Shown here: one piece after another, positions 8,101 to 45,775 of the stretch
Position numbering within the stretch: the first letter of the stretch is position 1
How the letters are laid out: each line of letters starts with the position of its first letter
NCBI GenBank assembly: GCA_017412605.1
Contig: JAFPWY010000003.1
Span: 248,001 to 312,000 of the forward strand
Reading direction: 5' to 3'
DNA length: 64,000 nucleotides
From: Fibrobacter sp.
GTDB taxonomy: Bacteria; Fibrobacterota; Fibrobacteria; Fibrobacterales; Fibrobacteraceae
The notes under the pieces: generated by a model
What the model was told of the DNA's origin: nothing
Databases searched by the model: none
What the model saw: the letters and a program-made list of their open reading frames with translations, nothing else
Translations under genes and position numbers: made by a program

Positions 8101-9061
8101 CGACAATGCTGCCTACTCCGTCAACTCTGTCAGCTTCTCGGGTAACGCGATTGCGGTCGGAAAGGACGTGAATACATACATCATGAAGCTTTCTGCCGAC
8201 AACTTCAAGAACACTTCCGTCAACTACCCGAACGTGGAATTCGTTATCGAAGACGGTAGCCTCGTGATTACCCAGAAGCTTGTCTACCTGGCTGTAAGGA
8301 ACGAAAGCAAGGACTACGGCGAAAAGGATCCTGAATTCAGCTATGATGTCCTTGGGCTCATTGAGGACGAAAAGCTGAACGATGTTTCGCTGGTCCGCGA
8401 AACCGGTGAAGACCTGGGCGAATACGCCATCAAGGTTGCGGTCGAAAAGCAGTCCAACCCGAATTACAATGTTGGCACGTCTGACGGTGTCTTTACCATC
8501 AGGCCGAATTCCAAGGAAATCATCGTGACAATCAAGGGTCACAAGGATACCGTGGAATACGACAAGGAGAAGCATCGCGTGGAGGGTTACGAAATGTCTT
8601 GCAACAACAAGGCCTATTCTCTTGATAACGTGATCTTCAAGGACTATGCGATCGTTTCCGGTATTGAACCCGGTACGTATCCGATGGGCATCAAGGCGGA
8701 AGATTTCAAGAATTTGTCCGAAAACTACTCGAACGTGGTATTCAAGGTTACGGACGGTAGCCTGACCATCGTCAAGAAGGAAGAAAAGGAAAACAAGGAC
8801 AAGGAGAAAGACAAGAACAAGGAAAAGGAATCCATACTTGCTTCTCGTGCTCCGGCAAGCCTCCTGCAGGTCCATGTCATGGATCGCAACATCCAGGTGA
8901 ACAGCACCCTGACGGGCAAGGTCTATACCGTGTTCGACATGCAGGGCAATGTTGTGCGCAAGGGCCGCGTGGAATCCGCAAGCTTCGAGATTCCGGTCTC
9001 CAAGGCTGGCGTCTACATGGTCCGCGTCGGTACGCTCTCCCAGCGCGTCACCGTCAGGTAA
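5186..9061 (+). CDS. Secreted CotH-kinase protein with MBG repeats and a T9SS-type C-terminus
   Basis: The product is 1291 residues. Order of parts: signal peptide to AMAFAQ (residue 30); an Ig-like segment; a CotH kinase-like domain (about 134-540) with GRGNTTW at 185-191, YAIKFDKK just after, and IWDFDVGFGND in the second half; a Listeria-Bacteroides repeat (about 541-612, YVFAGW); about four MBG/Ig-like repeats each starting like KPVTLTVADTSK; a charged Lys/Glu linker; and a C-terminal module with FDMQGNVVRKG and GVYMVRVG, the pattern of type A type IX secretion sorting domains. CotH proteins are atypical protein kinases. Start at 5186, with an alternative ATG at 5189. Likely exported and cell-surface or extracellular; the substrate is unknown. 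Confidence 0.8.
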   Translation: MMLNVKNSLFSHWKLSVLAAIFSAAMAFAQDTASVATPELVVTGQPAAISIAEKDSSVTITFKAQKGEETVSYQWFKSADGSTENAEAIEGANEGSFSTEVFTEKGIRYYFCVATAGEESVTSDVAAVAYTGLPVLYINTEIPMEEITKDVYVFGNMKLVYEDGTNFAYKFEKEKNGEKKEGIKGRGNTTWQMDKKGYAIKFDKKQQLFGLAAAKKWCIIANYADKTLLRNVYASLLAKNIFNAEWNPSFRPVEVVWNGVYQGNYILCERNTVSAGRVDVQDISNIGKDDFADANGDGEVDMYDGGFVLEIDGWRDAEFWFESEKAKAPVALKDPDEVSEDIQEHVRTIVQTAENALYSDNFKDAVDGWRKYFDEESVIDWFFVNEIARNHDAKDSSSIYKFYDPTDSKLHYGPIWDFDVGFGNDGDGEVAAVTGWYVKNGFWTIRMFEDSLFVHNVIERWNEQKEALNASVQDMFLSLASSDSVSAETNFMKWDILGKKVHTNSAGYEERLTYQSEVDYMKTWVEERIAWIDNALKNSFFISYDLDGGTLPTANPNVFLSEDTEPFQLNNPVKEGYVFAGWSGTGIDGTSETVQVTDDKSGNKAFKANWKADIAFYEASFAESEFVYSGAALTPAVVVALEGGEPLTAETDYVVSYANNVEAGVATVTITGVGDFGGILEKTFTIAPKPVTLTVADTSKMFGETDPEFGFAVEGLVERDGAVEELKDVEIAREEGEDVGEYAISATVNAESNPNYAVTVENGKFTIAPNTTEIVVTITGHKDSVVYDGEEHSVSGFDMVSSVEAYSVDNVTYSGDAAVAGIDAKTYAMGLAEGDFANSSVNYTNVSFVVEDGGLEIFPKPVTLTVADTSKNLGEVDPEFSYTVEGLLTFNDIEDSLKNVTLSREEGSDAGEYAITATVDADSNANYAVTVNNGVFTIKPDTTKIIVTITGNKDTLEYNGKSQAVTGFRATADNAAYSVNSVSFSGNAIAVGKDVNTYIMKLSADNFKNTSVNYPNVEFVIEDGSLVITQKLVYLAVRNESKDYGEKDPEFSYDVLGLIEDEKLNDVSLVRETGEDLGEYAIKVAVEKQSNPNYNVGTSDGVFTIRPNSKEIIVTIKGHKDTVEYDKEKHRVEGYEMSCNNKAYSLDNVIFKDYAIVSGIEPGTYPMGIKAEDFKNLSENYSNVVFKVTDGSLTIVKKEEKENKDKEKDKNKEKESILASRAPASLLQVHVMDRNIQVNSTLTGKVYTVFDMQGNVVRKGRVESASFEIPVSKAGVYMVRVGTLSQRVTVR

Positions 9062-9091
9062 TGGCATCCTGAATTCGCATTAACTAATTTT

Positions 9092-9147
9092 AAGCAAAGC
9101 CGTTTTTTGTATATTTAAGATATATGGAAAACGGCTTTGCTTTTTTT
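9092..9147 (+). terminator. 15-bp stem terminator overlapping the mscS start
   Basis: AAGCAAAGCCGTTTT (9092-9106) is perfectly complementary to AAAACGGCTTTGCTT (9128-9142), and seven T follow at 9141-9147. It would end the CotH transcript. The loop contains TATATT (9110-9115) and the ATG at 9124, so the 3' arm of the terminator is also codons 2-7 of mscS. Confidence 0.7.
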
Positions 9148-9969
9148 GAAAACGGAATGGCTTCGCTGATGCAGCACTCGCTGTTGCAGCGGCTTATTCT
9201 TGCGCTTTTGGTGCTTGGCCTTGCTAAGGTTTTGCTCTTTCTTTTGAAACGCCTCATTGCCCGCGCAGAACTCCATAGGATGGACCCTGCCGCGAGCCCT
9301 CTGGTGTATTCCCTCGCTTCTTACACTATTTATGTCGCCACGCTCCTGATTGTGCTCCACATCGCTGGAGTCAACACGGCGGGGCTGGTGGCCATGGTAG
9401 GCGCGGCTAGCCTTGCTGTGGGTCTTGCGCTCAAGGATACGCTTTCCAACATTGCGTCGGGACTCTTGCTCATGTTCCTCAGGCCGTTCAAGGCGGGGGA
9501 CTATATCGAGTGCGGCTCCATCAAGGGCAAAATCAAGGGCATCGGCCTTTTCAACACGACGCTTGTTTCGCTGGACGGGCTGTACGTCTCGGCCCCGAAC
9601 AGCACGCTGTCGGGCAATCCTATCGTGAACTTCAGCAAGAACGCGACCCGCCGCCTGGAAATTGTCGTGGGTATCGATTACGGCGACTCTACCGACAAGG
9701 CGCTCTCCATCATGCGCGAAATGGTCGAAGAAGAACCCAAGTTCCTCAAGTCTCCGGCTCCGCAGTTCTTTGTCTCCGCCTTGGCGGACAGCTCCGTGAA
9801 TGTCGCTTTCAGGGCATGGTCCAAGAATGCGGATTACTTTGAGCTCCTGTGGAAATATACGGACGAAATCAAGCGGCGGTTCGACAAGGCGGGCATCACG
9901 ATTCCGTTCCCGCAGCGGACACTGCACGTGCAGCAGCCGCTGGATGCCGATATCGACGGCCAGGAATAG
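9124..9969 (+). CDS. mscS: MscS-family small-conductance mechanosensitive channel
   Basis: The product is 281 residues. Three membrane segments come first. The pore helix is MVGAASLAVGLALKDTLSNIASGLLLM, with the Gly/Ala pattern of MscS TM3, followed by the beta-domain (RPFKAGDYIECGSIKGKIKGI, then NSTLSGNPIVNFS) and the C-terminal alpha/beta domain. The channel releases solutes during hypo-osmotic shock and acts in the inner membrane. The ATG at 9124 lies 8 bases after TATATT and has no ribosome site, so it would be leaderless; an ATG at 9157 (MASLMQHSL) is an alternative. It is convergent with the GH43 gene, which ends 3 bases beyond. Confidence 0.85.
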   Translation: MENGFAFFENGMASLMQHSLLQRLILALLVLGLAKVLLFLLKRLIARAELHRMDPAASPLVYSLASYTIYVATLLIVLHIAGVNTAGLVAMVGAASLAVGLALKDTLSNIASGLLLMFLRPFKAGDYIECGSIKGKIKGIGLFNTTLVSLDGLYVSAPNSTLSGNPIVNFSKNATRRLEIVVGIDYGDSTDKALSIMREMVEEEPKFLKSPAPQFFVSALADSSVNVAFRAWSKNADYFELLWKYTDEIKRRFDKAGITIPFPQRTLHVQQPLDADIDGQE

Positions 9970-43864: not shown

Positions 43865-44023
43865 TTATTTATGCACCGGTTTTCGTGGTGTACGATGAAT
43901 GCTCGGGCGTCTGTTGCCCGGATGCAGCGGCATGACCTTGGATGTCGCCGAAAGGGTGTGCTCGATTTTTTCCTCGCCGAAGGAGGAATACTGTCCCGTA
44001 AAAAGTCTGTTGTCTATAGCCAT
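43865..44023 (-). CDS. Possible small protein upstream of the Mur ligase
   Basis: A 52-codon frame on the minus strand (ATG at 44023-44021, stop 43867-43865) encodes MAIDNRLFTGQYSSFGEEK and a basic C-terminus ending TPRKPVHK. Codon use looks protein-like and it lies 60 bases before the Mur ligase. There is no strong ribosome site and I do not recognise it. The rest of 43805-44172 shows only AT-rich sequence. Confidence 0.4.
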   Translation of the reverse strand: MAIDNRLFTGQYSSFGEEKIEHTLSATSKVMPLHPGNRRPSIHRTPRKPVHK

Positions 44024-44172
44024 AAATCGTACCTGTGAAAGCGAAAATGGAAAAAGCTAAATGAAGTAAAGAGATAATTATTCAAGATAATCTATTTTGC
44101 CAAAAAAAACAAATGAACAATTCCGTTTTTTGGGCAAACAAGCGTACTTAAACGTTTTTTTACATTTCTTTT

Positions 44173-44201
44173 TTGCCAAAAAGCCCATTTTTAGGTATAT
44201 T
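44173..44201 (+). promoter_or_regulatory. Sigma-70 promoter of the trpB2 leader
   Basis: TTGCCA (44173-44178), 17 bases, then TATATT (44196-44201). The leader ATG is 7 bases beyond the -10, so transcription may start at or near the A of the ATG. Confidence 0.75.
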
Positions 44202-44208
44202 TCGGCAC

Positions 44209-44256
44209 ATGAAATTCGTAGCAAGCATCAACTTCTGGTGGTGGCAGGCCCAATAA
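44209..44256 (+). CDS. Tryptophan leader peptide (trpL-like)
   Basis: A 15-residue leader, MKFVASINFWWWQAQ, with three consecutive UGG Trp codons at 44236-44244. It lies between a promoter and an attenuator, 137 bases before a tryptophan synthase gene. Ribosome stalling at the Trp codons when charged tRNA-Trp is scarce would set which RNA hairpin forms. The ATG has no ribosome site and is probably at the mRNA 5' end. Confidence 0.85.
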   Translation: MKFVASINFWWWQAQ

Positions 44257-44323
44257 ACGGAGCCTGGTATTTTTGGTACGGTTTTCAAAAGAAGCAGGCT
44301 CCTCAAAGGGAGCCAATTTTTTT
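44245..44323 (+). promoter_or_regulatory. Tryptophan attenuator (1:2, 2:3 antiterminator, 3:4 terminator)
   Basis: Segment 1 CAGGC (44245-44249) can pair with GCCTG in segment 2 (GGAGCCTG, 44259-44266). Segment 2 pairs perfectly with segment 3 CAGGCTCC (44295-44302). Segment 3 GGCTCC also pairs with segment 4 GGAGCC (44309-44314), which is followed by AA and seven T (44317-44323). This is the full set of mutually exclusive hairpins of a classical attenuator. Confidence 0.85.
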
Positions 44324-44392
44324 GCAAAAATTTTGGAAACCCGGCAAAGAACCTGAAACTGACGCAAACTACAACAAAGAAAGGAAAATAAA

Positions 44393-45775
44393 ATGAGAAA
44401 CTCGCTCAAGCTCGACGGCCCGGTCAAGACTTACCTCGACGAAAACGAACTCCCGAAGGCATGGTACAATGTCCGTGCCGACATGAAGAAGAAGCCCGCT
44501 CCGCTGCTGAACCCCGGTACCGGCAAGCCGGTAACCTTCGAAGACCTGCAGCCCGTGTTCTGCGACGAACTCATCAAGCAGGAACTCGACAACGACACCC
44601 GCTTCTTCGAAATTCCCGAAGACATCCTCACGTTCTACAAGATGTACCGTCCGTCGCCGTTGGTCCGCGCCTACTTCCTCGAACAGGCCCTCGGCACTCC
44701 GGCCCACATCTACTACAAGTTCGAAGGCAACAACACCTCGGGCTCCCACAAGCTCAACTCTGCCATCGCCCAGGCCTACTACGCCAAGAAGCAAGGGCTG
44801 AAAGGTGTGACGACCGAAACGGGTGCAGGCCAGTGGGGCACCGCCCTTTCCATGGCATCCGCCTTCTTCGGCATCGACTGCCAGGTCTACATGGTGAAGG
44901 TCTCCTACGAACAGAAGCCGTTCCGCCGCGAAGTCATGCGCACCTACGGTGCATCCGTGACCCCGTCCCCGTCCATGACGACCGACATCGGCAAGAAGAT
45001 CAACGCCGAATTCCCGGGCACCACGGGTAGCCTCGGCTGCGCCATCTCCGAAGCCGTGGAAGCCGCCGTGAAGCAGGAAGGCTACCGCTACGTCCTCGGT
45101 TCCGTGCTGAACCAGGTGCTCCTCCACCAGTCCGTCATCGGTCTCGAAACCAAGGCCGCCCTCGACAAGATTGGCGTGAAGGCCGACCTCATCATTGGTT
45201 GTGCCGGCGGTGGTTCCAACCTCGGTGGTCTCGTGAGCCCGTTTGTCGGCGAAAAGCTCCGTGGCGAAGCCGACTACGATATTCTCGCTGTGGAACCGGC
45301 AAGCTGCCCGAGCTTCACTCGCGGTAAGTACGCCTACGACTTCTGCGATACCGGTAAGGTTTGCCCGCTCGCCAAGATGTACACGCTCGGCTCGAGCTTC
45401 ATCCCGTCTGCCAACCACGCCGGTGGCCTCCGCTACCACGGCATGAGCAGCATCCTCTCTGAACTCTACGATCAGGGCCTGATGCGTGCAACGTCTGTGG
45501 AACAGACCAAGGTATTCGAAGCCGCCAAGCTCTTCGCCCAGACCGAAGGCATCCTCCCAGCTCCGGAATCCAGCCACGCTATCCGCGCAACCATCGACGA
45601 AGCCCTCAAGTGCAAGGAAAACGGCCAGGCCAAGAACATCGTGTTCGGCCTCACCGGTACGGGTTACTTCGACATGGTTGCCTACCAGAAGTTCAACGAC
45701 GGCGAAATGAGCGACTACATCCCGACGGATGAAGACATCGCCAAGAGCCTCGCCCAGCTTCCGCAGATTGGCTAA
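44393..45775 (+). CDS. trpB: Tryptophan synthase beta chain, TrpB2 type
   Basis: The product is 460 residues, longer than TrpB1 (about 400), with the long N-terminal extension of the TrpB2 group. The PLP lysine is K120 in NTSGSHKLNSA. TETGAGQWGTALSMA and the phosphate loop GCAGGGSNLGG are present. It condenses indole with L-serine to tryptophan. TrpB2 enzymes usually act without TrpA and may salvage free indole. No trpA is adjacent. Expression is probably attenuated by tryptophan (see the leader at 44209-44323). Confidence 0.93.
   Translation: MRNSLKLDGPVKTYLDENELPKAWYNVRADMKKKPAPLLNPGTGKPVTFEDLQPVFCDELIKQELDNDTRFFEIPEDILTFYKMYRPSPLVRAYFLEQALGTPAHIYYKFEGNNTSGSHKLNSAIAQAYYAKKQGLKGVTTETGAGQWGTALSMASAFFGIDCQVYMVKVSYEQKPFRREVMRTYGASVTPSPSMTTDIGKKINAEFPGTTGSLGCAISEAVEAAVKQEGYRYVLGSVLNQVLLHQSVIGLETKAALDKIGVKADLIIGCAGGGSNLGGLVSPFVGEKLRGEADYDILAVEPASCPSFTRGKYAYDFCDTGKVCPLAKMYTLGSSFIPSANHAGGLRYHGMSSILSELYDQGLMRATSVEQTKVFEAAKLFAQTEGILPAPESSHAIRATIDEALKCKENGQAKNIVFGLTGTGYFDMVAYQKFNDGEMSDYIPTDEDIAKSLAQLPQIG

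Follow-up and report, generated by a model that had tools for sequence, protein, structure and literature searches.

A candidate leaderless tryptophan attenuator preceding a stand-alone trpB2 gene in the Fibrobacteraceae

Actinobacteria possess tryptophan (Trp) peptide leaders with double or triple UGG codons before trp operons, and in C. diphtheriae such a leader precedes an operon called trpB2A (PMC1262725). The Rfam family RF01692 (Bacteroid-trp) represents a Trp peptide leader of the Bacteroidota, the sister phylum of the Fibrobacterota. The locus described here had been placed by the original prediction in a phylum far from those best known for trp leaders; with these two groups in view, that distance has to be reduced. 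In S. meliloti, the 5′ end of the known RNA rnTrpL coincides with the AUG that opens a WWW leader peptide of 14 aa (PMC7298713). As for the enzyme, TrpB2 of T. kodakarensis is a paralogue beside TrpB1 and is assigned a role in Trp synthesis and indole salvage by Hiyama 2014, as cited in PMC11085991. A search of the open literature library brought up no account of Trp attenuation for Fibrobacter.

The window, i.e. the whole 64,000-nt stretch of DNA that was analysed, belongs to a Fibrobacter genome (G000) of 3.53 Mb that is 99.5% complete. The parts of the locus are as follows.

44173..44201, plus strand: sigma-70-type promoter TTGCCA-17-TATATT, read from the sequence, with the 17-nt spacer found in 54 of 54 Fibrobacteraceae Trp leaders
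44173-44178, plus strand: -35 box TTGCCA, read from the sequence
44196-44201, plus strand: -10 box TATATT, read from the sequence, followed by 7 nt and then the ATG at 44209
44209..44256, plus strand: leader ORF MKFVASINFWWWQAQ, 15 residues, its start codon being the predicted transcription start; homologous peptides occur at 15 other trpB2 loci
44236..44244, plus strand: TGG TGG TGG, three consecutive regulatory Trp (UGG) codons, invariant across trpB2 leaders
44254-44256, plus strand: leader stop codon TAA, between segments 1 and 2
44245..44251, plus strand: segment 1 CAGGCCC, for 1:2 pairing, with compensatory pair types in 17 leaders
44259..44266, plus strand: segment 2 GGAGCCTG, partner of segment 1 or 3
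44295..44302, plus strand: segment 3 CAGGCTCC, in the 2:3 antiterminator and the 3:4 terminator
44308-44314, plus strand: segment 4 GGGAGCC, which with AA and T7 forms the 3′ half of an intrinsic terminator (44308..44323)
44317-44323, plus strand: T7 tract, end of the terminator
44393..45775, plus strand: trpB2, 460 aa, a TrpB-like PLP enzyme by its TIGR01415 and PRK12391 scores, monocistronic, with the next gene on the other strand

Every element that had been predicted, i.e. the promoter, the 15-residue leader, three Trp codons, four segments, seven T and trpB2, was confirmed at its position. Helix 2:3 is a perfect 8 bp, helix 3:4 consists of six Watson-Crick pairs plus one G.U, and helix 1:2 of 5 bp plus 2 past a bulge. 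The fold of the leader exceeds that of shuffles in stability by 3.9 s.d. A short WWW ORF combined with a terminator and a directly adjoining promoter was seen a single time in the window and in none of 60 dinucleotide shuffles (3.84 Mb). No Shine-Dalgarno sequence precedes the leader ORF in the window sequence. Scored with Rfam covariance models, the window leader reached 19.9 bits for the best family, and no trp leader family was among the matches; it stands outside every Rfam leader family, RF01692 included. That another sensor of tRNA-Trp, such as the T-boxes used by clostridial trpB2 genes, or a riboswitch takes the place of the leader peptide has next to no probability, since an Rfam scan of positions 43900-44700 gave no T-box or riboswitch match even at E up to 10, and the in-frame WWW ORF with its correctly placed stop codon is conserved. 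An unlisted ORF of 52 aa (MAIDNRLFTGQYSSFGEEKIEHTLSATSKVMPLHPGNRRPSIHRTPRKPVHK) lies divergent from trpB2 on the minus strand (43865-44023), and short ORFs resembling it were found 5′ of trpB2 in several relatives.

Judged from its sequence, the window element carries every testable feature of a ribosome-mediated trp attenuator. We consider it very probable that a transcription attenuator of this kind, sensing charged tRNA-Trp, controls trpB2; we infer the Trp response, the transcription start and the substrate. RNA polymerase would start on the A of the leader AUG or on a neighbouring base, as the promoter position implies, and a ribosome would initiate on the leaderless 15-codon ORF. With Trp-tRNA scarce, this ribosome would stall on UGG UGG UGG and cover segment 1, upon which 2:3 would pair and transcription would read into trpB2. 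With Trp-tRNA plentiful, it would reach the stop codon and cover segment 2, and 3:4 would end transcription at 44323. The position of the stop codon relative to segment 2 (44254-44256 vs 44259-44266) is such that a terminating ribosome would cover segment 2.

Folding calculations are consistent with this mechanism. When a modelled ribosome occupies one of the three Trp codons, whichever it is, the RNA left free forms 2:3 (-22.0 kcal/mol); with the ribosome on the stop codon it adopts the 3:4 fold, and without a ribosome folding gives 1:2 plus 3:4. For most leaders the terminator is the favoured equilibrium structure of the complete RNA, which makes full-length folding uninformative on the switch and implies that antitermination, like that of E. 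coli, has to take place during transcription. The switch was therefore tested on RNA folded only as far as segment 3. With the ribosome stalled, 36 of 36 distinct leaders paired at least half of the terminator left arm upstream, with fold energies of -11 to -25 kcal/mol, compared to 0 to -10 kcal/mol with the ribosome at the stop codon.

The pairing was also followed by covariation in 17 leaders, ten of trpB2 and seven of trpE (genera g5, g6, g7, g9 and g10). Pairs were counted on core-anchored segments, the MAFFT alignment A1 having put segment 2 out of register. All three helices still pair despite changes on both sides. The pair before the GGAG core in 2:3 appears as A-T, T-A, T-G or C-G and the loop-proximal pair of 3:4 as T-G, T-A, A-T or G-C, while in 1:2 the pairs C-G and A-T, G-C and T-A, and G-C, G-T and A-T were found. 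Part of this covariation rests on the trpE leaders, the trpB2 leaders being much alike.

Altogether 54 Fibrobacteraceae leaders were examined for their layout (24 trpE, 14 trpBA and 16 trpB2). Beyond the uniform promoter spacer, the distance from the end of the -10 box to the start codon is 6-7 nt in 51 leaders and 8-9 nt in three; for loci L187 and L227 the start at the standard spacing was taken, which is a GTG in L227. Because this is the usual distance from a -10 box to the transcription start, transcription of all 54 leaders should begin at the leader start codon, as predicted from promoter position. A Shine-Dalgarno-like 4-mer within 12 nt upstream was found in 0 of 41 leaders; within 16 nt, 66 of 82 trpB2 genes have one. 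The Trp leader peptides of the Fibrobacteraceae are thus probably leaderless throughout the family. The terminated window RNA, about 115 nt from the AUG, would have the layout of S. meliloti rnTrpL (PMC7298713), and the RNA or its peptide could, like rnTrpL and peTrpL, also act in trans. We regard this as unlikely: the N-terminus of the peptide varies among the paralogous leaders and the trpB2 leader is often lost.

Control of trpB2 by Trp attenuation agrees with the rest of the genome. In G000, further Trp leaders with terminators precede trpE (MMIYATSATLNRRWWRGL) and trpBA (MKMKSAIRFNRWWWGSRT), which makes trpB2 the predicted third unit of a Trp-attenuator regulon. We searched 111 Fibrobacteraceae genomes for a promoter with a 17-nt spacer whose -10 box is followed, after 5-9 nt, by an ATG and then by TGGTGG. 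In G000 this pattern matched only at trpB2, trpBA and trpE; over the whole set it matched in 82 of the 111 genomes with TTGCCA and in 15 with TTGACA, whereas the reversed pattern used as a control matched in none. Leaders were present at 23 of 30 trpE loci, and all seven loci without one belong to genus g4. Elsewhere in the phylum, a clear Trp leader was seen at one of 30 trpE loci (L234). This leader, MKTSNNKVLMWWWQGNITSLERAFIAN, from a distant Fibrobacterota family, has TTGACA-17-TATATT 7 nt before its ATG, i.e. the same leaderless layout. Looked for as a test of whether leader-peptide attenuation is general here, His leaders were found at 0 of 28 hisG loci. The anatomy, the covariation and the paralogous leaders at trpE and trpBA hence support the prediction that a monocistronic trpB2 is under Trp attenuation.

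A separate observation concerns the trpBA locus. In L009, the minus strand has another element in tandem with the Trp leader of trpBA and 5′ of it, at about 8960-9210; it possesses a promoter and a terminator of its own and no Trp codons, and such an element is also present in L221, L225, L228, L230, L268 and L275. It is bracketed by the conserved GATGAAAT..GGCAATCC and TTGCC.TTTCATCAAGTGTTT, both of which recur in the Trp leader itself, and an Rfam match for it was not found. Perhaps it is a duplicated attenuator with another input.

The gene product scored 576.9 bits against TIGR01415 (cut-off 518.85) and 675.4 bits against PRK12391 (cut-off 366), and far below the curated cut-off for TrpB1. 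Its PLP-lysine and catalytic-loop motifs are GSHKLN, ETGAGQWG and GGGSN, those of TrpB1 from the same genome GAHKIN, ETGAGQHG and GGGSN, and the closest solved structures (6hul, 4qys, 6hte) were deposited as tryptophan synthase beta chain 1 and 2. G000 also carries trpE, trpGD, trpCF and, apart from these, trpBA (trpB1 plus trpA) on contig C9. The description as a single TrpB2 gene without trpA therefore holds for the locus, where trpB2 stands alone, but not for the genome; since trpA and trpB1 are present, TrpB2 would be an extra beta subunit. It would make Trp from serine and indole, a substrate assigned by prediction, and in G000 it would use free indole, leaked or environmental, beside TrpAB.

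Outside the family, the nearest TrpB2 proteins come from Lachnospiraceae and other Clostridia, many from the rumen, at 80-85% identity (L010-L089), which suggests transfer. A strict T-box motif is present in 25 of 77 upstream regions, most of them from Clostridia, and 24 of the 25 have a GAA-UGG-R specifier. Many of the clostridial genes carry their Trp T-box immediately 5′ of trpB2, and one clostridial trpB2 T-box was checked by covariance model. Two trpB2 genes of Bacteroidales have WWW leader peptides with terminators (L060, about 2805-2960; L085, about 2665-2820); they scored 36.5 and 30.9 bits against RF01692, below its cut-off of 49, and in both a 5′ UTR seems to precede the ATG. By these features trpB2 is under predicted tRNA-Trp control through different devices in different phyla, and this is the best argument that the product of TrpB2 is Trp.

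Within the main clade, the leader is present at 16 of 63 trpB2 loci. The alignment proposed as a check showed invariant UGG codons and compensatory stem changes, in a leader of restricted distribution; with 47 of 63 close relatives devoid of it, this control would not be essential where the trp operon exists. On the trpB2 gene tree the leader was gained or lost about 7 times, at least 3 of these changes being forced by well-supported branches. The trpB2 leader peptides are homologous (MKxVxSINFWWWQxx) and resemble those of trpE, e.g. MKNANFAIRFWWWQAL in g11; from this we infer a single origin from a trpE-type leader, followed by repeated loss or transfer. In several relatives, a similar -10 box runs straight to a Shine-Dalgarno sequence, and in sister species without the leader the promoter cores look alike, the flanks aligning too poorly to prove a clean deletion. 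In some species (L111, L170), the spacer from terminator to Shine-Dalgarno sequence (44331-44385 in the window) is nearly identical despite wholly different promoters upstream, which suggests that leader and trpB2 travel as one unit. The patchy distribution and the relatives whose -10 box leads directly to the Shine-Dalgarno sequence, together with the trpE and trpBA attenuators that already control flux, would also suit a leader that was copied from an old trp leader and is now degenerating, its parts intact and of little regulatory consequence. Decay is expected to break parts piecemeal, whereas WWW, terminator and promoter spacing are intact in 16 of 16 trpB2 leaders, with pair-preserving changes; we therefore judge a degenerating copy very unlikely.

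Four relatives bear on the indole-salvage reading. L102, L103, L140 and L153 form a trpB2 clade with 98% support that spans two genera, and all four have kept the leader. Their genomes are G110 (98% complete), G109 (71%), G045 (99%) and G042 (85%), and in these four, two of them incomplete assemblies, none of trpE, trpD, trpC (IGPS), trpB1 and trpA was found. Here trpB2 with its leader is the only trp gene detected; as one trpB2 clade, the four count statistically as one event. Many relatives are represented by incomplete metagenome assemblies. G065 (80% complete) has trpB2 without a leader, and trpE, trpA, trpB1 and IGPS were not found; it may be a counterexample or just incomplete. In G040 and G041 (L286, 1500-1590; L313), an N gap or the end of the contig comes directly after a WWW leader of the trpB2 type, and a search for trp genes found none; these assemblies break at the leader. 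The retention of switch and gene in pathway-less relatives suggests that TrpB2 makes Trp from scavenged indole there, as a pure indole-salvage enzyme, and strengthens the indole-salvage reading put forward originally. In its widest form, the reading would be that a leaderless Trp attenuator and a stand-alone trpB2 make up a transferable indole-salvage module, the only Trp gene kept in pathway-less Fibrobacteraceae, within a family where mRNAs with a Trp leader peptide generally begin with its start codon; on this full statement our confidence is evenly divided.

On its regulation alone, TrpB2, a widespread enzyme of debated role, can in this way be placed in the Trp regulon; the same assignment follows from different tRNA-Trp sensors in three phyla, a leader peptide in Fibrobacterota and Bacteroidota and a T-box in Clostridia. 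The distribution further suggests that some Fibrobacteraceae make Trp only from indole. With its probably leaderless leader peptides, the whole family would also be a simple natural system in which to test how 70S ribosomes that initiate on a 5′ AUG keep pace with RNA polymerase during attenuation.

Compared with known systems, the classical enteric mechanism that had been proposed stands in its main parts: the locus shares with E. coli trpL the tandem Trp codons, segments 1-4, the stop codon between 1 and 2, the U-tract terminator and the logic. Unlike E. coli trpL, the Fibrobacter leader lacks a ribosome-binding site and probably a 5′ UTR, and its target, in another phylum, is a lone trpB2 rather than a trp operon. 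S. meliloti trpL/rnTrpL (PMC7298713) is alike in its WWW leader, transcription attenuation and RNA 5′ end at the AUG, which in Fibrobacter is predicted; it controls trpE(G) in an alphaproteobacterium, whereas the Fibrobacter target is trpB2, with paralogues at trpE and trpBA. RF01692 is likewise a Trp peptide leader, but does not match the window leader. The actinobacterial attenuators (PMC1262725) also have leader peptides with tandem UGG, in a different phylum and before operons that include trpA. The clostridial Trp T-box senses tRNA-Trp charging at the same kind of gene, with proteins 80-85% identical, but binds the tRNA directly and without a leader peptide. TrpB2 of T. kodakarensis differs in being archaeal, and the portions of the literature examined report no leader-peptide attenuation there. 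The mechanism is thus already known; what appears to be new is the phylum, the lone trpB2 target, the fact that relatives without the pathway have kept it, and the probably leaderless layout shared by the whole family.
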